51,990 bases of DNA from an uncultured Desulfobacteraceae bacterium. Lineage in GTDB: Bacteria; Desulfobacterota; Desulfobacteria; Desulfobacterales; Desulfatirhabdiaceae. Below are positions 28,524 through 46,802 of the stretch, piece after piece. The notes under the pieces are model-generated. The model saw only the letters and a program-made list of their open reading frames with translations. It was not told where the DNA came from and searched no databases. Positions within the stretch are counted from its first letter, which is position 1; each line of letters begins with the position of its first letter. The position numbers and the translations under genes are program-made. The DNA is taken from contig CAJBLH010000075.1 in NCBI GenBank assembly GCA_903953895.1, forward strand, positions 1 through 51,990. The letters run 5' to 3'.

Positions 28524-28655
28524 TATCCACGAACTCCCAATTTCATTCTTTTTGTCTTGTTGGCTATCAGGCGGGTTAGGGTGTGTTCTCACGAACGATC
28601 ACCGTAGAACCGGTCGGAGTGTAACGATGGAACAGTGAAGGGAGGTGAAACTATC

Positions 28656-28865
28656 ATGGCAGTAGAAAAAACGAATGCATCATCGAGTTTGGTAGAGGTC
28701 ATAGACCGGATTCTTGACAAAGGCATTGTGGTTGACGCCTGGGCAAGAGTCTCTCTGGTAGGCATCGAGCTTCTGGCGATTGAAGCCAGAGTGGTCCTGG
28801 CGGGTGTTGAAACCTATCTGAAATATGCCGAAGCCGTGGGCCTTACCGCCCAGGCCGCTGCATAA
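28656..28865 (+). CDS. gvpA: Gas vesicle structural protein GvpA, copy 1
   Basis: This is the major gas-vesicle shell protein (69 residues), a small amphipathic protein that polymerises into the ribs. It has the conserved core '[20 protein letters not shown]', then '[17 protein letters not shown]' and '[17 protein letters not shown]'. A strong GGGAGGTG site precedes it by 12 nt. Its protein sequence is identical to copy 2 at 28962; the DNA differs by a few silent changes. It is the first structural gene of the cluster. Confidence 0.98.
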
Positions 28866-31586: not shown

Positions 31587-31632
31587 CCATAAGGATTTGC
31601 ATCAATTTTTTGCCGGCTGAAAGGAAATGGAT

Positions 31633-31959
31633 ATGAAATGGCAGGCTTGCTCGTTTTGCGGAGGAAAAGGCGTTGATCCTTTTCGAATGTTTTACGATGA
31701 GTCAGTATGTCAGGTATGTGGCGGACGCGGAAAGAAACGTATTCCGGAACATGCGGTTTCCTGCGCGTATTGCCAGGGATCGGGTATTCAACCGCACCGT
31801 AGGCTTGCCTGCACCGTATGCAGTGGAACCGGTTTTGTCGGCATTCATGAACCGACAACCCCCTGCCCGAAATGCAAGGCAAAAGGCGTGTCTGCGGGCG
31901 AATATCTGCCTTGTCGGACATGCAGGGGGAAAGGGCGGATATCTGTTCGATTTCAATAG
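31633..31959 (+). CDS. Free-standing DnaJ-type zinc-finger protein (six CxxCxGxG motifs)
   Basis: The 108-residue protein is little more than a DnaJ cysteine-rich domain without J-domain or C-terminal domains. Motifs in order are CSFCGGKG, CQVCGGRG, CAYCQGSG, CTVCSGTG, CPKCKAKG and CRTCRGKG, six in place of the four of DnaJ, enough for three zinc sites. The start at ATG 31633 fits AAGGAAA 6-8 nt upstream better than ATG 31627. In this cluster a J-domain occurs on a GvpF/L protein (36946) and an Hsp70 at 42034, so the parts of a DnaJ appear dispersed over separate proteins. It may hold unfolded Gvp clients. Confidence 0.85.
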   Translation: MKWQACSFCGGKGVDPFRMFYDESVCQVCGGRGKKRIPEHAVSCAYCQGSGIQPHRRLACTVCSGTGFVGIHEPTTPCPKCKAKGVSAGEYLPCRTCRGKGRISVRFQ

Positions 31960-31995: not shown

Positions 31996-32907
31996 ATGGG
32001 TGAAATAACAACCATTCTAGAACCCATATCGATGTCGGATTTCGTTGAAACGCCCTATATCAGCGATGTGACTGTTCGGGCCGTGGGGTATCTGGAAGCA
32101 GGCTTTCCCCTTCATTTTCGCGGTATTTCCGGAACCGGAAAGACGACGATTGCCATGCATGTAGCCAGCAAGATCGGCAGGCCGGTGATTTTGATCCATG
32201 GGGACGAAGAATTTTCGACATCGGATCTGGTAGGAAGTGAACAAGGCTACAGCATTCGCCGGGTAAGGGATAATTTTATTCACACGGTTCTGAAAACAGA
32301 AGAGAACATGCGTAAGCAATGGGTTGATAACCGTCTGACGGTTGCCTGCAAGCATGGTCTCACGCTGATTTACGATGAATTTACCCGATCCAGGCCAGAG
32401 GCCAATAATGCCTTGTTATCGGTTCTTCAGGAAAAAATGCTGGATCTGCCGGTCAGCAGAAATGGCGATGGGAATTATCTGAAAGTCAATCCCAATTTCA
32501 GGGCCATATTCACCAGCAATCCGGAAGAGTATGCCGGTGTGTATCGCAGTCAGGATGCGCTTCGAGATCGAATGGTGACCATCGATCTGGATAATTTCGA
32601 CCGCGAAACCGAAGTCCGGATTACCGCCGCCAAATCCGGCCTGCCCATAGACGACGCCGCACGGATAGTCGATATTGTCCGGGGGCTCAGGGAGTCTGAC
32701 GTATTCGAGTTCTCGCCGACCGTCAGGGGGTGCAACATGATCGCCAGATCCGCCGTTGTGCGAAAGGCGTCGATTCGTAAGGATGATACGGTGTTTCGGC
32801 AGATATGCTTCGATATTTTATCGTCCGAAACCAGCCGCATCGGCAACAGGTCTAACCAGGAACGTGTCAAAGAGGTGATTGCGGACCTCATCGATCGGTA
32901 TTGCTGA
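31996..32907 (+). CDS. gvpN: Gas vesicle AAA+ ATPase GvpN
   Basis: This MoxR/GvpN-type AAA+ ATPase of 303 residues is required for normal vesicle enlargement. Walker A is 'RGISGTGKTTIAMHVA' near residue 42; Walker B region is 'LTLIYDEFTRSRPEANNALL'; sensor 1 is 'FRAIFTSNPEEYAGV'. The start has AAAGGAG 8 nt before ATG. It sits among accessory gvp genes as in other clusters. Confidence 0.95.
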   Translation: MGEITTILEPISMSDFVETPYISDVTVRAVGYLEAGFPLHFRGISGTGKTTIAMHVASKIGRPVILIHGDEEFSTSDLVGSEQGYSIRRVRDNFIHTVLKTEENMRKQWVDNRLTVACKHGLTLIYDEFTRSRPEANNALLSVLQEKMLDLPVSRNGDGNYLKVNPNFRAIFTSNPEEYAGVYRSQDALRDRMVTIDLDNFDRETEVRITAAKSGLPIDDAARIVDIVRGLRESDVFEFSPTVRGCNMIARSAVVRKASIRKDDTVFRQICFDILSSETSRIGNRSNQERVKEVIADLIDRYC

Positions 32908-33303: not shown

Positions 33304-34056
33304 ATGAACCGCGAAGGTAAATACCTGTATTGCATCATTCAAGGAAATGAGGGCCGCAGTTTTGGACCCATTGGCATCGGCGACCGCGGGGATGTCGTGT
33401 CCACTGTCGGATACCAGGATATCAGCGCTGTGATCAGCAGCACGCCCATGAACAATTACGTCATCAATCAAGAGAATATGCTGGCCCACGAACGGGTTAT
33501 CGAAACCGTCATGAAAGATTACACGGTGCTGCCCGTTCGATTCTGCACCATTGCGTCCAGCGCGGAAGAACTGCGCACCATGTTGAGACAACGGCATTCA
33601 GAGCTCAAAGGCCTGCTTAAAGACATGGACAACAAGTTCGAGATGGGACTCAAGGCCGTGTGGAAAAACATGCCTCAGATCTATCAGGAAATTGTGGATG
33701 ACAGTCCGGCCATCAGAGAACTCAAACACAAGGCGGATGTATGTCCGGAAACAGCGGCCAATCCCTTACGGCTTGAACTGGGCAGAGCGGTGAAAGAAGC
33801 GCTCGATCACAAAAAAGAAAGAGAAAGCGCGCAAATGATTGCATCGTTTAAAAAAATCATTCTGGATATCAAACTGAACAAGTTGGTCGGAGACAACATG
33901 GTATTGAATGCCGCATTTCTGATTGACCGCTCCCGCGAAAAATCTTTCGATTTGATGATCGACGATCTGCAGAAAAAATTAGACGACCGCGTGCTGTTCA
34001 AATATGTGGGGCCGGCGCCGCTGTTCCATTTTGTCAACCTGGTGATGAAGTTGTGA
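33304..34056 (+). CDS. Gas vesicle protein GvpF/L, paralogue 1
   Basis: This 250-residue GvpF/GvpL family protein begins 'GKYLYCIIQGNEGRSFGPIG' and ends 'GPAPLFHFVNLVMKL', both typical. GvpF/L proteins bind GvpA and other Gvps during nucleation. Four paralogues occur in this cluster (33304, 36946, 38273, 40239). This one and the one at 38273 are alike in length and layout. Confidence 0.93.
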   Translation: MNREGKYLYCIIQGNEGRSFGPIGIGDRGDVVSTVGYQDISAVISSTPMNNYVINQENMLAHERVIETVMKDYTVLPVRFCTIASSAEELRTMLRQRHSELKGLLKDMDNKFEMGLKAVWKNMPQIYQEIVDDSPAIRELKHKADVCPETAANPLRLELGRAVKEALDHKKERESAQMIASFKKIILDIKLNKLVGDNMVLNAAFLIDRSREKSFDLMIDDLQKKLDDRVLFKYVGPAPLFHFVNLVMKL

Positions 34057-34069
34057 TAAGGAGGATAGG

Positions 34070-34606
34070 GTGTCATCTGATAAAAAGGAAGACGTTGGAT
34101 TCGATTTTGGTCTGGGCGGGCTGTTCAAAGGGCTGAGCAATCTGATGGATGCAGCCGTGCAACTGGCTGAAAAAGGGGAATCGCTATCCAAATCCGGGGA
34201 GATTCATTTCAGCGGGCTCGACAAGCTGAAGGGCCTGAAGGACCTGAAAGGGGTTTATGGGGTCCGGATCAGCACCCTGTCGAACGGCAGACCATCGATA
34301 CGGCCCTTTGGGAACATAAAAAAATCTCCGACCGGACCGGTGGTGGAAGAAACGCGTGAACCGCTTGTGGATGTTTTCGATGAAGCGGATAGCATTCAAA
34401 TCATAGCGGAAATGCCAGGTGTTTCTCAACCCGACATCGAAGTGGATGTCAACGGAGATATCGTTCATATTTCAGCCAGTTCCGGCGCTCGGAAATACCA
34501 GAAGGAGCTGCTTCTCTCCCGTGCCGTGCAGGCAGATGACATGACCTGGACCTATCAGAACGGCATTCTGGAAATCCTTATCAAAACCACGCCCGAAAAA
34601 AGCTGA
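34070..34606 (+). CDS. gvpH: Gas vesicle small heat-shock protein GvpH
   Basis: This 178-residue protein has an N-terminal Gly-rich and amphipathic part ('GFDFGLGGLFKGLSNLMDAA') and a C-terminal alpha-crystallin (Hsp20) domain ('EPLVDVFDEADSIQIIAEMP', 'GVSQPDIEVDV', 'NGILEILIK'). This is the GvpH arrangement. The GTG start follows AAGGAGG by 6 nt. It probably keeps Gvp subunits soluble. Confidence 0.88.
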   Translation: MSSDKKEDVGFDFGLGGLFKGLSNLMDAAVQLAEKGESLSKSGEIHFSGLDKLKGLKDLKGVYGVRISTLSNGRPSIRPFGNIKKSPTGPVVEETREPLVDVFDEADSIQIIAEMPGVSQPDIEVDVNGDIVHISASSGARKYQKELLLSRAVQADDMTWTYQNGILEILIKTTPEKS

Positions 34607-34685: not shown

Positions 34686-36788
34686 ATGGATGTTTCAACC
34701 ATAACCCTCAAAGTGGCGGAAGCCGGATCTCGTGATGTCGGCCGGGGCATCGCCCGTTTCGATCCGGCTGATTTCAAATCCGTGGGAGTGCAGGTGGGCG
34801 ATGTGATCCGGATAACCGGCAAACGCAATACCGCCGCCAAGGTCTTGCCTGCATATATCGAGGATCGGGGAAAGGGAATCATTCGGCTCGATGGCATTAC
34901 CCGTGAAAATGCGCGGGTTGGCATCGATGAAAAAGTCAGCATCGTCAAGTCCGATTTTCAGCCGGCCCACAAGATCGTCGTTTCATCGCTTACACCGATG
35001 CGCTCTGTCGATGCCCGCTATATCGGCAGTCTTCTTGAAGGGATCGCCCTGGTCGAGGGAGACACCCTTCGCGCCAAGCTGTTCGGATCCAAGACCCGGG
35101 ATTTTCATGTGGTTTCAACCCAGCCTTCCGGGGTGGTCATGATTCATTCCCAGACAGCCATCCATATCCAGGAGAAAAAAGAGCCGGGAGAAGGCAGGGC
35201 CAGGGTGTCATACGAAGATATCGGCGGATTGGGCAATCAGATCCGGCGCATTCGGGAGATGATCGAACTTCCCCTGAAATACCCGGAAGTTTTCGAACGG
35301 CTGGGGATCGATCCGCCCAAAGGGGTTCTGCTGCACGGGCCGCCAGGATGTGGCAAAACCTTGATTGCACGGGCTGTGGCCAATGAAACGGATGTCTTCA
35401 TGGCGCAGTTGAGCGGCCCGGAGATCATGAACAAGTTTTACGGTGAAAGTGAAGCCAATATTCGCCGCATTTTCGATGAGGCGTCCAGCAAGGCTCCCAG
35501 CATCATTTTTCTGGATGAAATCGATTCCATCGCCCCCAAACGGGAAGAAATGGGTGGCGAAAAGCAGGTGGAAAAACGGGTGGTGGCCCAGCTTCTGGCG
35601 CTGATGGACGGGCTGTCTTCCCGGGGACAGGTGATTGTCATCGGCGCCACCAATATTCCCAACGCCATCGATCCTGCTCTGAGACGGCCGGGCCGGTTCG
35701 ACCGGGAAATTGAAATCGCCATTCCCGACAAGCACGGGCGGTTGGAGATATTGACCATTCATACACGGGGCATGCCCCTGGCCGAAGATGTGGACCTGGT
35801 GCGATTGTCCGAAATGACGCATGGCTATATCGGCGCAGATATCGAAGCACTTTGCCGGGAAGCGGCCATGGCCACGTTACGGAAAATATTTCCCACCATA
35901 GACTTTCAGATGGTTGATATCCCCTATGATACATTGATGTCTCTTCAGGTCTCCATGGATAATTTTCTGGAGGCTTTTCGGGAAATTGAGCCATCGGCCA
36001 TTCGGGAGGTTTTCACCGATATTCCCGATGTGAAATGGGAGGATGTCGGCGGGTTGGATGCCGTGAAACAGGTTCTTCAGGAAACCATCGAGTGGCCTCT
36101 GAAATACGCCGGACTGTTCGAACACATGCATACCACGCCATCGAAGGGCATCCTGCTGTATGGGCCTCCGGGTGTAGGCAAAACACTTCTGGCCAAAGCG
36201 GTTGCCACGGAATCCGGCGTCAATTTCATTTCGGTTAAAGGACCGGAGCTTCTTTCAAAATGGATTGGAGACAGCGAGAAAGGCATTCGCGAAGTCTTTC
36301 GAAAGGCCCGGCAAGCCTCGCCCTGTATCGTTTTTTTTGATGAAATAGACAGCATTGCCGCCAGAAGGGGAGCAGATTCCTCTTCCCATACGGTGGATCG
36401 CATGATCAGCCAGCTTTTGACCGAGATGGACGGCATCGAGGAATTGAAAGGCATCGTGGTTCTGGCCGCAACAAACCGGCTGGATATTCTGGATCCCGCC
36501 ATCCTTCGGGCCGGACGTTTCGATTTTCATATCGAACTGCCCGCTCCGGACGAGATAACGCGTGAGGCCATTTTCAGGGTGCATACCCGTGACAAACCCC
36601 TGGACGCGAACGTGGATATCAAAAGACTGGCACACGCTGCAGGCCACCTGGTCGGGGCCGATATCGAGCTGATTTGCCGGAATGCCGCGCTGGCCGCCAT
36701 CCGGGAAGCCATCCAGTCCGGCAACAGCAATGATACCCAGGTATTTATCGCAGCCAGACATTTTGACGTGGGGAATGCGGGAGGATGA
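34686..36788 (+). CDS. Cdc48/VAT-type double AAA+ ATPase
   Basis: This 700-residue protein has an N-terminal double-psi/VAT-N domain ('[20 protein letters not shown]'), then D1 (Walker A 'GPPGCGKT', Walker B '[14 protein letters not shown]') and D2 ('GPPGVGKT', '[15 protein letters not shown]'). Both second-region-of-homology arginines are present. Cdc48/VAT unfolds or extracts proteins from complexes and membranes; it is archaeal/eukaryal in distribution with scattered bacterial copies. Its place between gvpH and a gvpF/L gene suggests remodelling of vesicle precursors. Confidence 0.93.
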
Positions 36789-36877
36789 ATTCACCGCAAA
36801 GTCGCAAAGGCCGCAAAGCAACAGGCTGTTTTTTTATAGATTTTCTTTGCGGTCTTTGCGTCTTTGCGGTGATATGA
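36789..36877. repeat. Palindromic repeat B, copy 2
   Basis: Left arm 36791-36818 and right arm 36845-36872 (GCAAAG/CTTTGC units) form a long hairpin with a T-rich loop, right after the Cdc48 stop. It matches copy 1 at 23885-23980, including the flank TGATAT.AATTTTATG. It may end or process the first gvp transcript. Confidence 0.85.
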
Positions 36878-36945
36878 ATTTTATGAATTACAGGTTTTGG
36901 GCGAATTGATGATCAATGCGGATAAATCGGATGGGTGAGGCGTCG

Positions 36946-37974
36946 ATGGATGGAAAATATCTCTACGGTTTTGTTCAAACCGCACATGCGGTGCAACTCG
37001 ATATTGCCGGTATCGATCAGGAAATGCTCTATACCGTTCCCCACCGGGATATCGCAGCAGTGGTCAGTGATGCGATTCCCATCATCGGGTCGGACCTGCC
37101 GAGGGAAGCCGTATTTTCCTGTCTGACCACCCATCAGGCCGCAATTGAAGCGGTCATGGAACGATATGAAATCATTCCGGCCAAGTTTGCAACGGTATTA
37201 TCCGGTGTCGATCTGGTTCACCAGGTGCTGAAAACCGAGTATCACCCCATTCGATCCAGCCTGACCGAGATGGCCAACCGGATCGAAATGGATGTGGTGG
37301 TGTTGTGGCGCGATCCGGCCGGTCTGTTCAAAAAAATAGCGGCCATGCCGCAAATCGATGACATCAAACGTCAGATGGCGGATGCCAGTCCCGATCGATG
37401 CCAGCAACTGCAGATTCAGGCCGGAAAACAGGTGAAAACGATTCTGGACAGCATGAACGCATCCTGTGCCAAAGAGGTGATAGATTCACTCACTCCGCTT
37501 TCCACGGCCTGTCAGCCCCATGAAGTCAAAAATGACGAGATGATTTTGAACTGTGCGTTTCTGCTCGACAGGCATCGCCAGGATGCGTTTGAAAAAGAGA
37601 TCGATGTGCTGGATAAGCAGTATGACAATCGGTTGACATGTCGAATCATCGGGCCGCTTCCGCCCTATAGTTTCAGAACCCTTGAAATCGAACGGATAGA
37701 TCCCGACGTGGTTGAAAATGCACGGGTTCTTTTTTCTCTTGGCAAAACTGTCACAAATCTAGAAATCAGAGCCCGATACCGGGAACTGGCCAAAACACTT
37801 CATCCGGATCACTTTCCGAAAGATAAAACAGCTCAAAACCGGTTTGAACTGCTCAATAAGGCGTATGAGATTCTAAAAGCCTACTGCCGCGGCAACACCT
37901 GTTCTTTTGCACCCGAAGATATTCAGAACTGGATCGCCGTCAAACCGATGACATATGCCGCCGGGATGCGATAA
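36946..37974 (+). CDS. GvpF/L protein with C-terminal J-domain, paralogue 2
   Basis: This is a fusion of 342 residues. Residues 1-245 are GvpF/L ('GKYLYGFVQTAHAVQLDIAG', ending 'GPLPPYSFRTLEI'). Residues about 258-315 are a J-domain: 'EIRARYRELAKTLHPDHFPK' carries the HPD tripeptide (286-288) that stimulates Hsp70 ATPases, followed by 'NRFELLNKAYEILKA'. J-domains occur on many proteins, but as a GvpF/L fusion I know of none. The start 36946 has GAGG 6 nt upstream; ATG 36916 is an alternative. An Hsp70 is encoded at 42034. It likely brings GvpF/L-bound clients to that Hsp70. Confidence 0.92.
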   Translation: MDGKYLYGFVQTAHAVQLDIAGIDQEMLYTVPHRDIAAVVSDAIPIIGSDLPREAVFSCLTTHQAAIEAVMERYEIIPAKFATVLSGVDLVHQVLKTEYHPIRSSLTEMANRIEMDVVVLWRDPAGLFKKIAAMPQIDDIKRQMADASPDRCQQLQIQAGKQVKTILDSMNASCAKEVIDSLTPLSTACQPHEVKNDEMILNCAFLLDRHRQDAFEKEIDVLDKQYDNRLTCRIIGPLPPYSFRTLEIERIDPDVVENARVLFSLGKTVTNLEIRARYRELAKTLHPDHFPKDKTAQNRFELLNKAYEILKAYCRGNTCSFAPEDIQNWIAVKPMTYAAGMR

Positions 37975-38054
37975 TCATGAGCCCCTGCTTTATTTCTTAC
38001 ATTTCGCTTATTTTTTTGCCGTTTTCATTTATTTTCTGTCTAAATACATCCATC

Positions 38055-38189
38055 CGCTGGTTCCCAAGCTCCTGCTTGGGAACCCGGTCGAGAAGCTCCA
38101 GCTTCTCGTAACATGCCGAACGTCAGAAAATGACACGAAGCAGGAGCTTCGAGGGCATCGTTTCCCAAGCTGGAGCTTGGGAAACAGCG
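38055..38189. repeat. Palindromic repeat element A, copy 2
   Basis: This 135-bp element has inverted ends (CGCTGGTTCCCAAGC...GCTTGGGAAACAGCG) and internal hairpins, alike in plan to copy 1 at 2237-2370. It lies in a 298-bp gap between two gvpF/L genes, so it splits the cluster into two blocks. The gap holds no gene. Confidence 0.85.
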
Positions 38190-38272
38190 GATTGAATAAA
38201 TCAGTTTTGCAATAACAAATGAGCGAAAAGTAAGTTGTTTTCCGGCCAACCCACATCATGAGATAAAAATCT

Positions 38273-39025
38273 ATGTCAGATCAGGGACGATATATCTACG
38301 CGATCATTGCGACAGATCAGGATAAGCAGTTTGGACCGATGGGTATCGGCGGCCGGAATGACGAGGTGTTCATTCAGCGGTATCAGGATGTCGGGGCCGT
38401 TGTCAGTTCATCTCCGGTGATGCAATATCCGGTCAGCCGGGCCAATACCCTGGCGCATCAGCAGATTCTGGAACGGGTCATGATGGAGCATTCCCTGCTT
38501 CCGGTTCGGTTTGGAACCATTGCAGATGATGACGACCAGATCCGGAACAAGGTACTGATCGCTCGATACGACGAAATCCGGGAGCGTTTATCCTATGTGA
38601 GCGATAAAATCGAACTGGGGTTGAAGGTACTCTGGATCGATAAATCTGCGCCGTTTCAGGAAATTGTGAATGAAAATAAAGAGATCCGCCGCATCCGGGA
38701 CCGGCTGGCCGAAAAAAAAGGCGCTGCCCAGCGCGATCAGGTCAGGCTGGGTGAAATGGTTAAAAAAGCACTCGATCACAAACGAATGAAAACGGAAAAA
38801 GACATGCTGTCTCAATTGCTTCCCCTTTGCGTGGATCATCGAAAGAACCCGGTGTTTGGAGACCAGATGATCACAAACAGCGCGTTTCTGATTTTCAAAC
38901 ACCGGGAAACCGCTTTTGATCAGGCGGTGAACGATCTGGCTGAAACCCATGCGGCACAGCTCAAGTTTAAATATGTCGGCCCGGTGCCTCCCTGTAATTT
39001 TGTGGAAATGAGCATTGTCTGGTAG
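38273..39025 (+). CDS. Gas vesicle protein GvpF/L, paralogue 3
   Basis: This is a 250-residue GvpF/L protein ('QGRYIYAIIATDQDKQFGPM', end 'GPVPPCNFVEMSIVW'). It opens the second block and is followed after 5 bp by gvpG, as in many clusters. It is closest in layout to paralogue 1. Confidence 0.93.
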   Translation: MSDQGRYIYAIIATDQDKQFGPMGIGGRNDEVFIQRYQDVGAVVSSSPVMQYPVSRANTLAHQQILERVMMEHSLLPVRFGTIADDDDQIRNKVLIARYDEIRERLSYVSDKIELGLKVLWIDKSAPFQEIVNENKEIRRIRDRLAEKKGAAQRDQVRLGEMVKKALDHKRMKTEKDMLSQLLPLCVDHRKNPVFGDQMITNSAFLIFKHRETAFDQAVNDLAETHAAQLKFKYVGPVPPCNFVEMSIVW

Positions 39026-39030
39026 GAAAT

Positions 39031-39276
39031 ATGGCATTTATCATCGATGACATCCTGTTGTCTCCGATCCGGCTGACCGTATGGGTGGCGGAAAAACTCA
39101 AAGATGCGGCATACCAGGAAATGACCGACGATTCCCGGGTACACGAGGAACTCCTGCACCTTCAGATGCGGTATGAAATGGGGGAAATCGGTGATGACGC
39201 GTATGAAACGGAAGAGATCCGGTTGATGGCGAAGCTGGAAAAAATTCGAAAAATCAAGGAAGAACAGGAAAAATAA
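39031..39276 (+). CDS. gvpG: Gas vesicle protein GvpG
   Basis: This 81-residue protein has the GvpG pattern: an N-terminal hydrophobic 'FIIDDILLSPIRLTVWVAEK' and a charged helix 'EEIRLMAKLEKIRKIKEEQE'. It lies between gvpF/L and gvpO. GvpG is a minor assembly factor that interacts with GvpF/L. Confidence 0.92.
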   Translation: MAFIIDDILLSPIRLTVWVAEKLKDAAYQEMTDDSRVHEELLHLQMRYEMGEIGDDAYETEEIRLMAKLEKIRKIKEEQEK

Positions 39277-39299: not shown

Positions 39300-39557
39300 A
39301 TGCGATTTGATGAAGTCATACAACTGGCCAAACGGATACTCCATGAACTGACGGGGCTCGACATATCCTCGGTTGTCCGCGCGGAAAAAGAGGATGACGG
39401 GTGGGTTGTCCAGCTCGAGGTGGTGGAAAAGCACTCCATTCCCGACAGTATGGATATTCTGGCGCTGTATGAAACCCGGCTGGATGCAGAGGGGAACATG
39501 CGGGAATTCAAACGCATCAGCATGCGAAAACGAATCGATACGGATACCGAAGAATAA
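39300..39557 (+). CDS. gvpO: Gas vesicle protein GvpO
   Basis: This 85-residue protein has the short GvpO fold 'WVVQLEVVEKHSIPDSMDIL' and 'ALYETRLDAEGNMREFKRIS'. It is preceded by AAAGGAAAC. GvpO is needed for vesicle formation in haloarchaea; the exact role is not clear. Confidence 0.92.
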   Translation: MRFDEVIQLAKRILHELTGLDISSVVRAEKEDDGWVVQLEVVEKHSIPDSMDILALYETRLDAEGNMREFKRISMRKRIDTDTEE

Positions 39558-39567
39558 GGAAAATTAA

Positions 39568-39927
39568 ATGCCTCTGGAACCCACGCGGGAAAACAGCGCC
39601 GGTCTGGCCGATGTCATTGACCGGATACTGGATAAAGGTCTGGTGATTAACGCCGATATTCTGGTTTCGGTAGCCGGCGTCGAGCTGTTGGGTATCAAGA
39701 TTCGGGCGGCTCTGGCATCTTTTGAAACCGCGGCCCGATATGGCCTCGAATTCCCGTCCGGCACGCAACTGGAAACCCCTGCATGGAAAGAGGCTCTGGT
39801 TGCACGGGAAGGTTGCCCTCAGTGTGAAAAGCGGGTATCCATCGAAGAGCTGGTATCCGATGGTTGCCCCTGGTGCGGATGGATCAGCGCCAAAGCCAGG
39901 CCCAGAATCCGGCAAAGCCTGACCTGA
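39568..39927 (+). CDS. GvpA-family (GvpJ-like) protein with C-terminal zinc ribbon
   Basis: Residues 1-70 are a GvpA-fold domain ('[20 protein letters not shown]', 'LVSVAGVELLGIKIRAALAS') as in GvpJ/M/S. Residues 83-103 are a zinc ribbon with Cys83, Cys86, Cys100 and Cys103 ('CPQCEKRVSIEELVSDGCPW'). Such a ribbon is not part of standard GvpJ. A near-copy of the ribbon ends the protein at 41339, so it is a shared module. GvpJ-type proteins cap or nucleate vesicles. Confidence 0.9.
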   Translation: MPLEPTRENSAGLADVIDRILDKGLVINADILVSVAGVELLGIKIRAALASFETAARYGLEFPSGTQLETPAWKEALVAREGCPQCEKRVSIEELVSDGCPWCGWISAKARPRIRQSLT

Positions 39928-39928
39928 A

Positions 39929-40234
39929 ATGGCGATCAATCTGGATGAGGATAATTTAAAACAGGGGGTTCTGGGTCTTGTCATTGCACTGGTGCAGATC
40001 ATTCGTGATGCACTTCGCATTCAGGCCATGAAACGCATGGAGGGGGGAGGGCTCACGGAAGATGAAATCGACCGGCTGGGGCGAACCCTCATGGATATGG
40101 ATGAAGTCATCGAAGACATCATCCGGGAACAGGGCCTTACCGAAACGGTTCGATCGGTCAGAAACGGGTTGGACGGTCTGGTGGATGATTTTCTGGATCA
40201 AATGATTCATCCCGGAAATGTCCGGAAGAGGTGA
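39929..40234 (+). CDS. gvpK: Gas vesicle protein GvpK
   Basis: This 101-residue protein has the GvpK pattern 'QGVLGLVIALVQIIRDALRI' followed by 'LTEDEIDRLGRTLMDMDEVI'. The start follows the preceding stop by one base, so it is coupled. GvpK is a conserved minor assembly protein. Confidence 0.93.
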   Translation: MAINLDEDNLKQGVLGLVIALVQIIRDALRIQAMKRMEGGGLTEDEIDRLGRTLMDMDEVIEDIIREQGLTETVRSVRNGLDGLVDDFLDQMIHPGNVRKR

Positions 40235-40238
40235 AGCG

Positions 40239-41339
40239 ATGAATGCCATCCTGAAGAAACTGGTTCAAGAAGAGGTTCAGAACCTGATAAGCCGTCATCA
40301 GGAGGCGATACACGCCCTGGTGAAAGAGATGCTGGTGTCTGAAATTCGACGCGCCATCCGGATGGAGATGCCCGACCTGCTGAATGACGGATTCGATGCC
40401 CGGTCTGAAGACTGCTCTGAATGCTGGTCTGAAGACCGTTCCGATGTCGGGGCGGATGTTCCCTCGGACAGCCTGATTATAGATACTCCCCCGGTTGCCG
40501 GTTATCCCGAAGCATCGCCAAAACCGGCCTCGAAAAAAGACATTCCGGTATCTCCGGACAACCACACACAGACCGACTGCCGCTATCTTTATGCCATTGC
40601 AGGATCGGATAAAACCATCCAACTGGGGCCGATCGGCATCGAAAATGCGTCGGTTTATACCATTGCATCGAACGGCCTGAGTGCTGTGGTCCATGCCTGT
40701 ACGTCCCAGCCTTACCAGTCCAGTGATCCGGAAATTGCACGGGGCTGGCTGCTCACGCATCAGCGCGTGGTGGAGGCTGCTTTCGAACAACTGGGCGATG
40801 TCATTCCCGCCGGGTTTGATACGATTATCAACGGAGAAGGGGCTTTAAACCCGGATGAAACCGTGCAGATCTGGCTGAACACGGAACACGACGCCTTGAT
40901 TTCCAAACTGGATCGGATCAGCGGTAAACAGGAATACGGGGTTCAGATTTTCTGGGATTCGAAGCAGATCGCAGCCCGAATTGCAACAGAAAACGAGGCG
41001 ATCCGGAGTCTGAACGAGGCAATCCGCTCCAAACCCGAAGGTGCGGCCTATATGTATCGGCAGAAGCTGGCGGACATGCTGAAAAACGAAATCGAACAAG
41101 CGGCGGATCGACATTTTCAGTCATTTTATCAGATCGTTCAACCTGTCGCCGATATGCTGCGGATCGAAAAAATCCGCCATTCTTCTGAAACCGGGGCCGA
41201 TCAGATGATCATGAATCTGTCCTGTTTGCTGTCACCGGAAAACCAGCAGCGACTAAGCCAGGAACTTGAAAGCATCGACGGGATGGAGGGGTTTTCCGTC
41301 AAATTCACCGGCCCCTGGCCCCCCTACAGTTTCGTGTGA
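40239..41339 (+). CDS. GvpF/L protein with N-terminal extension, paralogue 4
   Basis: This is a 366-residue protein. Residues 1-110 are a helical start ('QEEVQNLISRHQEAIHALVK') and an acidic, Ser/Pro-rich linker. Residues 115-366 are GvpF/L ('CRYLYAIAGSDKTIQLGPIG', end 'GPWPPYSFV'). The start 40239 lies 4 bp after gvpK. Its TGA overlaps the ATG of the next gene (TGATG at 41337-41341). The extension is unlike the other three paralogues and could bind another partner. Confidence 0.92.
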   Translation: MNAILKKLVQEEVQNLISRHQEAIHALVKEMLVSEIRRAIRMEMPDLLNDGFDARSEDCSECWSEDRSDVGADVPSDSLIIDTPPVAGYPEASPKPASKKDIPVSPDNHTQTDCRYLYAIAGSDKTIQLGPIGIENASVYTIASNGLSAVVHACTSQPYQSSDPEIARGWLLTHQRVVEAAFEQLGDVIPAGFDTIINGEGALNPDETVQIWLNTEHDALISKLDRISGKQEYGVQIFWDSKQIAARIATENEAIRSLNEAIRSKPEGAAYMYRQKLADMLKNEIEQAADRHFQSFYQIVQPVADMLRIEKIRHSSETGADQMIMNLSCLLSPENQQRLSQELESIDGMEGFSVKFTGPWPPYSFV

Positions 41340-42079
41340 TGGAACCCCGGCGCAGCGGTCATGCCACCCTGGTTGACCTGCTGGATCGAATCCTGGATAA
41401 AGGAATCGTGATCCATGCAGACCTGATGATTTCCGTGGCAGGCATTCCCTTGATCGGTGTCAACCTTCGGGCAGCGGTGGCGGGCATGGAAACCATGCTG
41501 AAATATGGCATGATGACGCAATGGGATGAAAAAACCCGTGCGCACATGTCCGGGGAATTCGCCATGCAGCAGCTTCGGCTGTTTCAGGATGAAACTGTGA
41601 TAGTCAAAGCCCTGGGCGCTGTCTGGTACGCCCGCGGGATTTATTCGGCGTGGCGCTATGGTCATATTTACATTACGGAACAGCGGCTGCGGGTCTGTCA
41701 GTCCACCGAACGCAGTCCACTTTTTGAAACCGGTCTCGATCAGATTGCCGCAACGGAATTCACTGACCGCAAGCAGAATGCAACAACTGAAACGACCTAT
41801 CTGAAACTTGTTTTGAAGGATGATCGGGTGGTCATGATCCGATCCCCGCACATGGCGTTGGTGCGGGAGGCGCTGGACCGGCAGGCCGCATTGCACGGGT
41901 ATTGTATGATCGATGCGCCATCGGCCAGTAATGAGGATACCGAAACCTGTCCGCAATGCGGAAGATCGGCTTCGGTGCAGACCCTTCTGGGCGATGGATG
42001 CCCCCGGTGCGGGTGGATGCGTAAAGGAAACACATGGGAAAAGCCATTGGAATCGATCTTGGAACCACGTATTCGGTAG
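41339..42079 (+). CDS. GvpA-fold / PH-like / zinc-ribbon fusion protein
   Basis: This 246-residue protein has three parts. Residues 1-65 are a GvpA-fold domain ('[20 protein letters not shown]', 'SVAGIPLIGVNLRAAVAGM'). About 80-195 look like a PH/GRAM-type beta domain ('YGHIYITEQRLRVCQSTE', 'YLKLVLKDDRVVMIRSPH'). Residues 204-224 are a zinc ribbon (Cys204, 207, 221, 224). A PH-like domain could place the protein on a lipid surface or a polymer tip. The last 46 bp overlap the Hsp70 gene. I know of no described Gvp with this layout. Confidence 0.87.
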   Translation: MEPRRSGHATLVDLLDRILDKGIVIHADLMISVAGIPLIGVNLRAAVAGMETMLKYGMMTQWDEKTRAHMSGEFAMQQLRLFQDETVIVKALGAVWYARGIYSAWRYGHIYITEQRLRVCQSTERSPLFETGLDQIAATEFTDRKQNATTETTYLKLVLKDDRVVMIRSPHMALVREALDRQAALHGYCMIDAPSASNEDTETCPQCGRSASVQTLLGDGCPRCGWMRKGNTWEKPLESILEPRIR

Positions 42080-43743
42080 CGGCGATTGTTGAAAACAACC
42101 GGGTTCGGATATTACAAAATGCCGAAGGCGGCCGGTTGACCCCATCGGTCTATGCCGAAAGCGCCGATGGGCATATTCTGGTGGGGGCCATCGCCAAAAG
42201 CCAGGCCTCGGCCAATCCGGATCGAACCGTGAGTTCCGTCAAACGCCGGATGGGATCGGATGCCCGAATCCAGGTGAACGGCAGAGGCCTTTCGCCCCAG
42301 GAAATCTCCGCACATATTCTTCGAAAAATCAAGGCCGATGTCCACCGCCAGCTCGGTGAAGCGGTAACCCAGGCCGTGATTACGGTTCCCGCGTATTTCA
42401 GCGACGCCCAAAGACGGGCCACTCAGGAAGCCGCCAAAATGGCCGGGTTCGAGATCCTGCGAATCATCAGTGAACCCACGGCGGCGGCGCTGGCGTATGG
42501 GCTGAACCGGTCCGATATTCAACACATCCTGGTATGGGATCTGGGCGGAGGAACCTTCGATGTGTCCATTCTGGAAGTCGGAGACGGACTGTTCCATGTC
42601 CGAGCGGTCAATGGCGACACCTGCCTGGGCGGAGATGACTGGGATGCTCGGCTGGTATCCCATCTGAAACAGCAGATATTGCAGAGCCATCAACTGGACA
42701 TCGAATCGGATGCCTGTGTGTTTCAGCAGGTCAAGGAAATCTGTGAAAGAACCAAACGGGAACTGTCGCATCAGGATGAAAGCCGTATTTTCCTGCCCCT
42801 TGCTTTCGGCCCCCATCATGACGCCCTTGAAATCGAGATGACGATCAGCCGGCAGGTGTTCGAGGAACTGACCAAGGATCTGCTTGACATGCTGATTGCG
42901 CCGACCCGTCAGGCCTTGAAAGATGTGTCGCTGACGCCGGCGGATATGGATCGCATCATTCTGGTGGGGGGTGCTACACGAATGCCGGCCGTCCGGCATC
43001 TGGCGGAAACCCTGTTTCAACAGCCTCCGGACACCCATTTGAATCCGGATGAAGTGGTTGCCATGGGTGCTGCCATTCAGGCCGGTGTATTGAACGGAAG
43101 TGTTCAGGATGTGATTCTGATCGATGTAACGCCCCTGTCTCTGGGGATCGAAACCCAGGGCGGCCTGTTTACCCGGCTGATTCCCCGGAATACCACCATA
43201 CCGGTTACCGCGGAGCGGATTTTCACCAATGCACAAGACAACCAGACGGTGATGGATTTCAACGTGCTTCAGGGTGAAAGGGAAATGGCCGGAGACAATA
43301 TCGGTCTGGGCTCGTTTCAGTTGACCGATATACCGGAGCTTCCCAGAGGAAAGGGGCGGGTGGAAGTGATGTTTGAAATCGATGCCAATGGCATCCTTCA
43401 GGTCTCTGCCCAGGAACTGCATACGGGAGAATCCGCCGGCATAAAGATTGACGCGTCGCATCTTTTATCCAGTGACCAGATCGACAGGGCCGTGGCCGAA
43501 GCAGCAGCCCATGCCGAAACCGACACGCACCGCCGCAGCGAAATCGAAGCATCCATTCAGACAAACCACCTGATTCAAGCCGCCGAAGCCCTGCTGTTTG
43601 GAATGGATCGGCGGTTGTCGAAAGCATCCCGCCGCCAGATTCACCTGGCCGTTTCAGCCGCCAAAACCGCTCTGTCAGGCGGCCGACTCGATACCATGAC
43701 CGAGGCGACCCAATCGCTGAGAAGCGCTCTCAACGGACTTTAG
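42034..43743 (+). CDS. Hsp70 family chaperone of the gas-vesicle cluster
   Basis: This 569-residue Hsp70 is about 60 residues shorter than DnaK at the C-terminal lid. ATPase motifs are '[13 protein letters not shown]', '[14 protein letters not shown]' and '[12 protein letters not shown]'. The substrate-binding beta-domain is complete ('[20 protein letters not shown]', '[15 protein letters not shown]'). The start is internal to the previous gene with AAAGGAAAC upstream, so translation is coupled. No grpE or dnaJ gene is beside it; the J-domain comes from GvpF/L paralogue 2. It is likely specialised for Gvp clients. Confidence 0.93.
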
Positions 43744-43744
43744 C

Positions 43745-44683
43745 GTGAAGCATATACCCGACACGATGAGAATCAAACCCAAACACAGCGCCATGCCGGC
43801 ACCCAAATTATTCCGTCCGAAGCTCAAGGATGGCGAGACTCTGGTACTGGAAGGCCAGGGGGGATTCAAATTCAATGAACGATCCGGATGGAAGGTAACG
43901 CTCTTTTTTTTGACCAATCAGCGGCTGATCGGCTGTCAACTTCACAAGATCACGCTTGAAATCCCTGTCGAATCGATTGTCGGCATCACCCGTGCCATGC
44001 AGGTTTATGTCATGCGCAAACGCGAGATTCTGTGCATTGCCTGTTCCCAGGGTGTCCATGGCGAGAAAGTGGGTCATGTCTGGTTTGTCATCAATGATAT
44101 CGCGATCTGGAGAAATGCACTGTATCGACTGGCGCTGCTGAAAGTCGATGAACCCCTGATAGAAACCATCGGACAGGATGTCGGGGCCGACAGCCGGGAT
44201 ATCCTGTGGTATCTGTGGCATCACCGTCATGCCACCATCACTGACCTGGCCGGGCTGATCCAGGCCGAGAATCATCGGGATGTGCTGATGCTGATCCAGG
44301 ATGAGATCAATCCGGCGGCTGAAAAACGGGCCGGCTGTCCGATTCTGTCGTTTGAACGGTCCCGGATAGATCCGCAAACCGGGGAAACCATCGGATACGC
44401 CTGGTGGATGCTGGGTACTCCCACCGCGGATTTCTCACGCCCGGACCGCCTTCTGGATATCGTGGATGAAGGTGACTATATCCAGGTGATACTGGAAGTG
44501 AAACAGGTTGAAAAAAGCGATCTTACCCTGCATGTCAGCCGGAATCAGCTCGTGATCTCTTCCGAAAAACCCGGTCATCGATGGACTGAAACATTTCGAT
44601 TGCCGGCGGATGTTACCTATGATCATCAGGATCTGCATCTGCGGAATCAGTTGCTTGAAATCCGTCTGGCAAAGGGCAAGTGA
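43745..44683 (+). CDS. PH-like / helical / Hsp20-like fusion protein
   Basis: This 312-residue protein has three parts. Residues 25-135 resemble a PH/GRAM domain ('LVLEGQGGFKFNERSGWKVT', 'LFFLTNQRLIGCQLHKITLE'). Residues 140-235 hold a winged-helix-like stretch ('DILWYLWHHRHATITDLAGL'). The C-terminal 75 residues are an Hsp20-like beta-sandwich ('DLTLHVSRNQLVISSEKPGH', 'LRNQLLEIRL'). GTG 43745 starts 1 bp after the Hsp70 stop; ATG 43766 and 43793 are alternatives. It may bridge a membrane or vesicle surface with chaperones. Domain calls are by pattern only. Confidence 0.75.
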   Translation: MKHIPDTMRIKPKHSAMPAPKLFRPKLKDGETLVLEGQGGFKFNERSGWKVTLFFLTNQRLIGCQLHKITLEIPVESIVGITRAMQVYVMRKREILCIACSQGVHGEKVGHVWFVINDIAIWRNALYRLALLKVDEPLIETIGQDVGADSRDILWYLWHHRHATITDLAGLIQAENHRDVLMLIQDEINPAAEKRAGCPILSFERSRIDPQTGETIGYAWWMLGTPTADFSRPDRLLDIVDEGDYIQVILEVKQVEKSDLTLHVSRNQLVISSEKPGHRWTETFRLPADVTYDHQDLHLRNQLLEIRLAKGK

Positions 44684-44699
44684 ACAGGGGGCAGGAGAC

Positions 44700-46802
44700 A
44701 TGGGGCAAGTGGTAGGTAACGGGGAGCAGATAGAGGAATTCCGCCGATTGTCTTCTCTGCGCTTGATCCTTGTCGGCGGCAAGGGCGGTGTGGGAAAAAC
44801 CACGGTGTCATCGGCCATGGCCCTGTATCTGGCCCGAAAACATGCCGGGAACAAGCGAATTTTCGTCATTTCGACAGATCCGGCCCATTCGCTGGCCGAC
44901 AGTCTGGGGATGACGATTGGGGATACCCTGACACCGGTGGACTGGAAATTGGGTACTGACGACAGCCCCCTGGAAAGGCGTGCGGATGGGGAAGAGCCCA
45001 CCAATCTGTTCGCGCTGGAGCTGAATGCCGGAAGGCTCCTGGCGGCGTTCAAGGAAAAGCACCGGCACGTTCTGACCACCCTGGCGGATCGGGGTACTTA
45101 TTTCGATCAGGCCGATATCGCCGATTTCTTCGATCTTTCCCTGCCGGGAATGGATGAGGTGATGGCCATCATGGAAGTGGCCTCCATTCTAAAGTCTGAT
45201 GCCTGCGATCTGCTCATTCTCGACACCGCGCCCACGGGTCATACCCTGCGGATGCTGAGCCTGCCGGCCCAGATGAAAAAATGGGTCGAGCTTCTGGATC
45301 TCATGCAGCAAAAACACCGGTTCATGAAGACACGGGCCACCAGAAAAACCTATGTCAAGGATGAATGCGATGTGTTTCTGGATGCGCTGTCGGCGGACAT
45401 GGACCGGGTTTCCCGTTTGCTTTCGGATTCGGCCATCACCCGGTTCATACCGGTGACCATTCCGGAGCAGATGAGCATCGAGGAAACCCATCGGCTGGTC
45501 GTTGCACTGGAAGAAATGAATATACCGGTAAAAAGCATGGTCGTGAACCGTACCGCGGCTTACCGGGATTGCCCGATATGCGCGATTCAATACGCCGATC
45601 AGCAGCCATCCCTGGCGCGCATCGATACCCTGTTTTCATCCTGTTCCCGGATTTATCTGCCCCTGTTTCCCTCGGAAATTCAGGGGCTGGGGTCCCTGTT
45701 TTCGATTGCGGATGCTTTTTCCGGCATCACGGATATGCCGGCCCGGAAATCCGACACAGGAGATCGGGATGCCGACATTCCGTTTTCTTCGACGGTTGAC
45801 ATGGCGCCTGGTACATCGGACACCCGCCCCCCGGTTTCCGTCACCCGGCCGTCCGGCCTGCCGGCATTGTCCCCTGATCTGAAATTCATTCTTTTCGGCG
45901 GCAAAGGCGGGGTGGGTAAAACCACCATGGCCGCATCGGCCGCACTGCATCTGGCCCGAACCTATCCGGATAAAAAAATCCTGATCTTTTCGACAGATCC
46001 GGCCCATTCACTGTCCGATTCTTTTGATCAGGTTATCGGCAACACACTGAAACCCATCGTTTATCCCCTGAATGACGGCCGCAAACAGGAAAAAACCAAC
46101 CTGTTTGCCATGGAAATCAATGCAGATACGCTTTTTGAAGATTTCAAGGCGGCGTTCAAACAGGACATATCCGCACTGTTCGATCAGTTTCTGCGAAAGG
46201 GCCTGGATATCCGGTTCGATCGTCAGGTCATGACCGAACTGATATCGCTTGCGCCCCCCGGCATCGATGAAATCATGGCGCTGGATAAAGTCATGGAACT
46301 GAGAAAGGAAAACGCCTTTGACATGTTCGTACTCGACACGTCGCCGACCGGACACCTGCTGCGGTTTTTGGAGCTTCCGTCCCTGATTCGGGACTGGCTG
46401 AAATCATTTTTCAGACTGCTGCTGAAATACCGGGGTGTGGTCAGGCTGGCCCATGCCGCTGAAAAAGCCCTGGCGCTCTCCCGAAATATTCGTCTGATTC
46501 AGGAGACGTTGATCGACCCGAAACAAACCGCCTTTATCGCTGTCACCATTCCAGAGTCGCTCGCAGTTCTGGAGTTCACCCGCCTGCTGTCCGCCATAAA
46601 AGCATCCCAAATTCCCTGTCATCATGTCATCGCCAACATGGTGGTTCCCCCTGGGCACTGTCCGTTCTGCTCGGTTCGAAAAATCCAGCAGCAGGGGTAT
46701 CTCGAAGAGATTCAATCGATTTCCGGTACGATACAGGTATGTCAAATCCCACTCGGTCCGCATCCCATCCGCGGGATGAATCGACTGATTTCCGATATCT
46801 GA
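44700..46802 (+). CDS. Tandem ArsA/Get3-like ATPase
   Basis: This 700-residue protein has two P-loop halves: GGKGGVGKTT at 26-35 and 400-409, with A-motifs 'DTAPTGHTLRML' and 'DTSPTGHLLRFL'. Each half has a CxxC near its end (Cys291/294 'CPIC', Cys654/657 'CPFC'), which is the zinc-dimer motif of Get3 and not the arsenite site of ArsA. No arsenic gene is near. Start ATG 44700 has AGGAG. Get3 carries hydrophobic tail-anchored proteins, so a carrier role for hydrophobic Gvp subunits is the natural inference. It ends the gvp cluster. Confidence 0.9.
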   Translation: MGQVVGNGEQIEEFRRLSSLRLILVGGKGGVGKTTVSSAMALYLARKHAGNKRIFVISTDPAHSLADSLGMTIGDTLTPVDWKLGTDDSPLERRADGEEPTNLFALELNAGRLLAAFKEKHRHVLTTLADRGTYFDQADIADFFDLSLPGMDEVMAIMEVASILKSDACDLLILDTAPTGHTLRMLSLPAQMKKWVELLDLMQQKHRFMKTRATRKTYVKDECDVFLDALSADMDRVSRLLSDSAITRFIPVTIPEQMSIEETHRLVVALEEMNIPVKSMVVNRTAAYRDCPICAIQYADQQPSLARIDTLFSSCSRIYLPLFPSEIQGLGSLFSIADAFSGITDMPARKSDTGDRDADIPFSSTVDMAPGTSDTRPPVSVTRPSGLPALSPDLKFILFGGKGGVGKTTMAASAALHLARTYPDKKILIFSTDPAHSLSDSFDQVIGNTLKPIVYPLNDGRKQEKTNLFAMEINADTLFEDFKAAFKQDISALFDQFLRKGLDIRFDRQVMTELISLAPPGIDEIMALDKVMELRKENAFDMFVLDTSPTGHLLRFLELPSLIRDWLKSFFRLLLKYRGVVRLAHAAEKALALSRNIRLIQETLIDPKQTAFIAVTIPESLAVLEFTRLLSAIKASQIPCHHVIANMVVPPGHCPFCSVRKIQQQGYLEEIQSISGTIQVCQIPLGPHPIRGMNRLISDI

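Follow-up and report, generated by a model that had tools for sequence, protein, structure and literature searches.

A GvpF/L gas-vesicle protein fused to a J-domain, a candidate link between Hsp70 and gas-vesicle assembly

How the very hydrophobic GvpA stays soluble and enters the growing gas vesicle is a question raised in a passage of PMC11445434, which also names, as lying outside that study, a possible dependence of the vesicles on proteins of the E. coli host. A gene from an uncultured Desulfobacteraceae bacterium bears on this question. It lies in a stretch of 51,990 nucleotides (contig CAJBLH010000075.1 of assembly GCA_903953895.1), hereafter called the window, and its product carries a GvpF/L domain followed by a J-domain. 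Does this protein direct an Hsp70 to gas-vesicle shell subunits, and which Hsp70 would be its partner? With an Hsp70 trigger built into a GvpF/L protein, the question of GvpA solubility and insertion becomes directly testable through the HPD motif. We propose, with a probability of about 0.72, that the fusion is a class C J-domain protein in which GvpF/L would be the client-recognising half, passing shell subunits to Hsp70.

The fusion gene and its predicted fold

The gene at 36946-37974 on the forward strand is a single uninterrupted frame encoding the GvpF/L-J fusion of 342 aa. A second in-frame ATG was found at 36916, 30 bp upstream of the start at 36946. The gaps flanking the gene hold long inverted repeats, unlike the tightly packed neighbours: one in 36791-36872 (31 nt arms, 90%) and one in 38049-38195 (34 nt arms, 91%).

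The first-pass annotation had described a GvpF/L domain reaching to about residue 245 and a J-domain with HPD at 286-288, and the Pfam searches agreed with both. The GvpF/L domain (residues 3-243; 36952..37674, forward strand) was matched by PF06386 (GvpL_GvpF) with an E value of 2.1e-52 and 179 bits against a cut-off of 23.6. The J-domain (residues 253-313; 37702..37884, forward strand) was matched by PF00226 (DnaJ) at residues 265-311 with an E value of 9.2e-12 and 45.3 bits, over the cut-off of 27.8. Its HPD motif at residues 286-288 is encoded at 37801..37809 (forward strand), and a conserved C-terminal tail (residues 314-342; 37885..37971, forward strand) follows 3' of the J-domain. At E <= 0.01 GvpL_GvpF and DnaJ were the only Pfam families on the protein, and the G/F, zinc-finger and DnaJ C-terminal domains were absent. 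No NCBIfam model exceeded its cut-off on the fusion protein; those for GvpL and cyanobacterial GvpF matched below it.

Structure prediction, the check proposed in the first-pass annotation for the 342-residue protein, gave the same division into two parts, with a GvpF half that matches crystal structures and a C-terminus that overlays known J-domains. The refuting outcome named there, a C-terminus modelled as something other than a J-domain, did not arise. The AlphaFold2 model, built from 81 sequences, reached a pLDDT of 94.4 and a pTM of 0.87. The predicted GvpF half matched the GvpF crystals 6l5d (Anabaena) and 4qsg (Microcystis) with Foldseek E values of 5e-16 to 2e-14; for 6l5d the E value was 5e-16 and the TM-score by target 0.81. 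VIA-align gave Z scores of 21.8 and 20.9 for 6l5d and 4qsg, and its 50 rows named GvpF and ferredoxin-like folds and left the J-domain unnamed, a small domain within a large model. In Foldseek, J-domains (5ayk, 5nro_B, 2dn9, 2ctq and others) stood among unrelated rows and superposed at 1.1-1.8 Å over 52-54 columns; three longer J-domain alignments lay at 3.4-4.2 Å. The DnaK-bound J-domain 5nro_B overlaid the C-terminal half at 1.2 Å over 52 columns with 36% identity and a probability of 1.00. The J-domain rows had probabilities of 0.99-1.00 and E values of only 0.06-0.24, because the J-domain makes up little of the query.

The predicted helices of the J part span residues 253-262, 271-285 and 296-313, the latter two flanking the HPD motif, and in the model they overlay helices I-III of solved J-domains. 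The canonical helix IV was not seen in the model. Residues 314-334 were instead predicted as strand-helix-strand, with a strand at 330-334, and the conserved tail packs at the place usually taken by helix IV.

Spread, descent and conservation of the fusion

The rarity that the first-pass annotation implied was not borne out. The architecture is widespread, and one protein from a named isolate is already in the public record. Scanning genome contigs turned up 264 relatives, and we rejected the idea of a rare local fusion. The scan patterns lie in the GvpF/L part, and ranking by the full-length score gives an advantage to sequences that carry a J part. The best 80 of the 264 relatives were analysed and share the architecture; both Pfam models (GvpL_GvpF and DnaJ) matched 81 of 81 alignment rows at E <= 0.01. 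Of the best 80 loci, 75 carry one of 18 phylum names, with labels taken from record titles; both rows labelled 'Myxococcota' are titled 'Deltaproteobacteria', L071 is probably the window's congener G003, and mis-binned metagenome-assembled genomes may be present.

Among seven other genomes of the family that were searched, three, all congeners, contain the full-length fusion at 69-77% identity, and the remaining four gave no match at E <= 1e-15. The frame is common to four species of the genus. Four further genomes of the order carry the fusion at 27-41% identity, and in the order as a whole it was found in 8 of the 14 genomes with a match (291 searched, single-protein query). Within the phylum of the window, 395 genomes were searched; GvpF/L matches were found in 34, of which 12 have the fusion, and two more gave J-only matches. 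The Bacteroidota gave 18 full-length fusions and one split over two contigs from 32 genomes with a match (395 searched), and the Chloroflexota 27 full-length fusions and one fragment from 52 (400 searched). These samples come from a fusion profile search with an E-value limit and at most the 5 best candidates taken from each genome; since the profile favours fusions, the fractions do not measure how common the fusion is among GvpF/L carriers as a whole. In one Bacteroidota genome (G893:C185:52170-52961) a GvpF/L match lies within a 714-residue open frame and may be another fusion.

Plasmid records give a view of systems with and without the J part. GvpF/L matches were found in 17 plasmid records, and in 16 of these the alignment reaches only to residue 243-270, the sources being Halobacterium, Streptomyces, Rhodococcus, Nostoc, Methylosinus and others. 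As the studied plasmid gas-vesicle systems run on such J-less GvpF/L proteins, the J-domain is not a general need. The remaining record, pOA238_160 of Octadecabacter arcticus 238, aligns through the J part; its protein WP_015497776.1 has the HPD motif and carries the label 'GvpL/GvpF family gas vesicle protein'. Neither an Hsp70 nor a CDC48 homologue was found among the annotated genes shown for this gvp cluster. The cluster (L217) is compact, and the plasmid is typed as mobilizable, with many flanking transposases. This context is a route for horizontal spread of a fusion-bearing gvp cluster.

In the 81-row alignment the histidine of the HPD motif was kept in 80 rows and the proline and aspartate in all 81, the exception being L083 (QPD). 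Tyrosine at position 278 was found in 72 rows and phenylalanine at 300 in 71; apart from the motif, the residues around HPD vary among the aligned fusions. Among 104 distinct fusion frames in the loci collected (window excluded), HPD was present in 101 of the 101 frames that adjoin other gvp genes. The motif was lost in the other three, L083 (QPD), L239 (motif gone) and L240 (YPD, shortened), and these are exactly the frames with no other recognised gvp gene within about 10 kb on each side. HPD was counted as a string in the last 130 residues, and L083, which is string-positive, was scored as lost from its aligned motif. The coincidence of HPD loss with the absence of gvp genes, which rests on three exceptions and on counts that ignore kinship, ties the Hsp70 trigger to gas-vesicle function.

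For the J core (residues 256-315), five close sequences gave dN/dS values of 0.09-0.33 at dS 0.26-0.70. The GvpF/L part gave 0.25-0.33, and the J core was lower in 9 of 10 pairs, which are not independent. We concluded that the J core is under purifying selection. A J-like part that is a structural add-on devoid of Hsp70 activity would fit the model, in which helix IV is not seen and the conserved tail packs there, and also the variation of the non-motif residues near HPD. Such an add-on is nonetheless very unlikely, given an HPD motif kept in every gvp-adjoining fusion frame across deep divergence and a core under purifying selection. An assembly or annotation artefact was weighed as well, the majority of fusion loci coming from metagenome-assembled genomes; its probability is practically nil, as the same frame occurs in four species of the genus and in the two isolates Ktedonobacter robiniae SOSP1-30 and Octadecabacter arcticus 238. 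Conservation, selection and the isolates together rule out chance or artefact.

A FastTree phylogeny of 311 GvpF/L domains placed all fusions in one clade with a local support of 99. The 311 rows were kept from 317 frames that had been gathered with the fusion as bait; long branches were flagged, and L070, L071, L073 and L075 were left out as duplicates of other sampled genomes. In the fusion clade of 85 rows, 80 were labelled as carrying J and 5 were not. A check of the labels left no intact J-less member: L077, L082, L118 and L141 carry an HPD-containing J part, and L059 is a cut copy of L058. Four orphan J proteins of the Desulfobacterota (L175, L176, L193 and L194; about 100-140 aa) have a J part and tail of the fusion's kind and were matched by the fusion's own profile. 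They stand alone, unlike the fusion, and no gvp genes were recognised around them in the stretches read. Such short orphan proteins may be near the donor of the fusion's J part.

The gas-vesicle cluster and the candidate Hsp70 partners

The fusion sits in a gvp cluster together with GvpA-family, GvpG, GvpO and GvpK genes and several chaperone-type genes, all described here on the forward strand. Upstream lie a GvpA-type shell protein (28635..28865; Pfam Gas_vesicle, named from the Pfam family and position), a DnaJ-type CXXCXGXG zinc-finger protein of 110 aa with no J-domain (31627..31959; PF00684, over cut-off, E 5e-11), an AAA ATPase in the GvpN position (31996..32907; Pfam AAA_5), which we take to be GvpN, a GvpF/L paralogue lacking J (33304..34056; Pfam), an Hsp20-like protein (34070..34606; Pfam HSP20, E 2e-5) and a CDC48-family double AAA ATPase (34686..36788; NCBIfam TIGR01243, over cut-off). 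Downstream, Pfam identified a second J-less GvpF/L paralogue (38273..39025), GvpG (39031..39276), GvpO (39300..39557), a GvpA-family protein here called GvpJ (39568..39927; Gas_vesicle), GvpK (39929..40234), a third J-less GvpF/L paralogue that is about 120 residues longer at the N-terminus (40218..41339) and a GvpA-family protein with a long C-terminus, here called GvpS (41336..42079; Gas_vesicle). N-terminally long GvpF/L versions of this kind also occur in L039 and L038. These are followed by a DnaK-like Hsp70 of 569 aa (42034..43743; Pfam HSP70, E 7e-186; NCBIfam PRK00290), the candidate partner, a protein with a C-terminal Hsp20-like domain (43745..44683; Pfam match below its cut-off) and a double ArsA/Get3-type ATPase (44610..46802; NCBIfam TIGR00345, over cut-off). 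The genome has four GvpF/L matches, all inside this cluster, and the DnaJ model hit none of the three besides the fusion at E <= 0.01. A paper of 2010 (PMC2963123) had already pointed out ArsA-type ATPases, Hsp20 and multiple L/F copies in gvp clusters; DnaK or Hsp70 occurs 0 times in the text of that paper, and its passages on gvp clusters mention no J-domain.

The zinc-finger protein was modelled with a pLDDT of 92. Its top Foldseek rows were the DnaJ cysteine-rich domain and BSD2, at weak E values of 0.025-0.03 and TM-scores of at most 0.43. BSD2 is a Rubisco assembly chaperone that likewise lacks a J-domain. By our reading of the alignment the protein has six half-motifs, compared with the usual eight in DnaJ. 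Homologues were found in 41 of 80 fusion loci.

The helpers beside the fusion could point to another use of its J-domain, in which Hsp70 is brought in for remodelling or clearing misassembled shell protein with the CDC48-type ATPase rather than for delivering subunits. Of the 72 loci in which the sequence extends more than 700 bp upstream, 59 have a CDC48-family gene as the immediate upstream neighbour of the fusion, and Hsp20-like genes are present in 57 of 80 loci, both of which would suit clearance. The link is loosened from two sides, by CDC48 homologues in gvp clusters that lack the fusion (L067, L068, L200, L205 and L216) and by fusions with no CDC48 homologue, in the Octadecabacter plasmid and in L249. 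We regard clearance as unlikely and retain subunit delivery as the preferred reading.

The candidate Hsp70 starts 4.06 kb past the end of the fusion gene, in line with the distance of 4 kb given before. The first-pass annotation called it an Hsp70 without its own DnaJ, and as written this holds, since of the seven J-domain matches of the genome only that of the fusion is on the window's contig. The DnaJ-type zinc finger described above is separately encoded upstream. Several Hsp70 matches were found elsewhere in the genome. No GrpE was found near the cluster Hsp70, and the two GrpE sites of the genome both lie outside the window. In G000:C148, L011, L014 and L252 Hsp70 and GrpE form a second operon, which also encodes a short J-like protein with TPE in place of HPD.

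The window's Hsp70 scored 688.7 bits with NCBIfam PRK00290 (cut-off 648) and 670.9 with TIGR02350, below its cut-off of 822.55. Aligned to solved DnaK, it has the nucleotide-binding domain, the linker and the substrate-binding domain, and it keeps the J-contact arginine (R143) and the linker aspartate (D364). At the position equivalent to N170 of DnaK, which we take to have a role in J-domain pairing, the cluster Hsp70s have N in 13, S in 7 (S146 in the window) and D in 3, compared with N in 15 of 15 others. The arginine equivalent to R167 was kept in 23 of 23 cluster Hsp70s and the linker aspartate equivalent to D393 in 22 of 22; passages of PMC8215388 and PMC7289447 describe the contact between the HPD aspartate and R167 of DnaK, and L391 and D393 as further J contacts.

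In the window's phylum an Hsp70 was found in 12 of 18 fusion clusters (G000, G002, G003, G028, G151, G188, G214, G554, G378, G600, G406 and G653) versus none of 14 visible clusters without the fusion, of which each was visible over 13-35 kb and some were cut by contig ends. The clusters of G266, G325, G371, G470, G503, G558, G566, G577, G579 and G596 were too short and were left out of the 14. Where no Hsp70 was seen beside the fusion, the contig ends near the fusion in G007, G395, G482 and G411, 9.5 kb is visible downstream in G485, and 38 kb with a complete cluster is visible in G498. Three clusters (G030, G048 and G514) have an Hsp70 and no visible fusion, and in each the contig breaks off at the place expected for the fusion. 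When the whole genomes of G030 and G048 were searched, each gave a single GvpF/L and no full-length fusion. The clusters with and without the fusion are different lineages, so the association of Hsp70 and fusion is not a set of independent events.

Across the best 80 of the 264 relatives, an Hsp70 was present in 11 loci and absent within the visible 10 kb or less in 69; the 11 are a floor, as loci reach at most 10 kb per side and many are cut. Where 8 kb or more is visible downstream, an Hsp70 was found in 9 of 43 loci, and where 9 kb or more is visible on each side, in 4 of 24. In G028 the locus L075 shows no Hsp70, yet its contig carries one at a distance of about 28 kb. The tie to a local Hsp70 suggested in the first-pass annotation has partial support: in the window's phylum 12 of 18 compares with 0 of 14, and 69 of the 80 loci at large show no Hsp70 in the visible stretch. 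A general partnership with a cluster Hsp70 was rejected as a rule on the same count. Most loci outside the window's phylum show no Hsp70 within 10 kb, so reliance on a cluster Hsp70 cannot be a general feature of the J-domain, and the housekeeping DnaK is probably the usual partner of the fusion.

In a tree of 38 Hsp70s, 21 cluster Hsp70s formed one clade, from Desulfobacterota, three Chloroflexota and one Planctomycetota. Two Anaerolineae cluster Hsp70s grouped apart, among Chloroflexota housekeeping DnaKs. Their genes lie directly upstream of the fusion, with 0 and 18 bp between stop-to-stop frames. This separate position means that an Hsp70 was recruited at least twice.

Could the housekeeping DnaK be the partner everywhere, this genome included, with the cluster Hsp70 serving other proteins of the cluster? 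The loci with no nearby Hsp70 would agree with this, as would the Bacteroidota genome G673, which has the fusion and whose single Hsp70 at E <= 1e-150 lies on another contig, G498, which lacks a cluster Hsp70 in the window's own phylum, and the serine at the N170-equivalent position of the window's Hsp70. The distribution within the phylum and the independent recruitment of an Hsp70 beside the fusion in Anaerolineae argue the other way. We consider it possible, and on the whole doubtful, that the cluster Hsp70 has no part in the work of the fusion.

Proposed role and comparison with known systems

A passage of PMC11445434 proposes GvpF of Bacillus megaterium as a chaperone of the shell protein GvpA2 acting through transient contact, and J-domain proteins aim Hsp70s at clients, as described in part of PMC8215388. 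Taken together, the simplest reading of the fusion is a targeting factor for Hsp70. The intact frame, the two domains with their predicted folds, the kept HPD motif, purifying selection, the single clade, the co-location with gvp genes and an Hsp70 in a subset of loci support this reading. By analogy with its family, the GvpF/L half would bind the GvpA-family shell protein; we infer that this paralogue does so, that its J-domain would trigger ATP hydrolysis in an Hsp70, and that the Hsp70 would then clamp the hydrophobic shell subunit, keep it soluble and release it for insertion as the vesicle grows. For the window's genome, the likely partner would be the cluster DnaK-like Hsp70, with the housekeeping DnaK as second candidate; in clusters with no Hsp70 the housekeeping DnaK would serve the fusion.

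The wide occurrence of the fusion suggests that Hsp70 helps to build gas vesicles. A wider picture can be put forward tentatively: gas-vesicle assembly in a large share of bacteria might be driven by Hsp70 with a dedicated but dismantled Hsp40, in which J sits on one GvpF/L paralogue and the zinc finger is separate, and to which a dedicated Hsp70 was added at least two times beside CDC48-, Get3- and Hsp20-type helpers. Systems lacking the fusion would then be a reduced form that uses general chaperones or none. If the Hsp70 link is true, the need for a matching Hsp70 could restrict the transfer of large gvp clusters to new hosts for ultrasound imaging.

Literature searches in full text, with partial coverage, returned no description of a GvpF/L-J fusion, and a passage of a paper that mentions both dnaJ and gvpF names them as separate genes. 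The domains joined to J-domains in prokaryotes were surveyed by Barriot et al. 2020, as cited in a passage of PMC8215388, and that survey may list the fusion. Dedicated pairs of a J-domain protein and an Hsp70, HscB/HscA and DjlB,C/HscC, are known (part of PMC8215388).

Among known proteins the fusion is like GvpF/GvpL (PF06386) in having the same domain and fold. The crystallised GvpF proteins, of 237-244 residues, end where the GvpF/L domain of the fusion ends, and the J part and tail are extra. On its other side the fusion is like the class C J-domain proteins of the HscB, DjlA and auxilin type, in which an HPD-containing J-domain is joined to a client- or site-specific domain, and it shares with them a chain free of the G/F, zinc-finger and DnaJ C-terminal domains. 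The models for HscB and DjlA matched it weakly, below cut-off. Unlike HscB, DjlA and auxilin, the fusion has as its partner domain GvpF/L, a gas-vesicle assembly factor. Both kinds of component are known, and what would be new is GvpF/L as the base of a class C J-domain protein.
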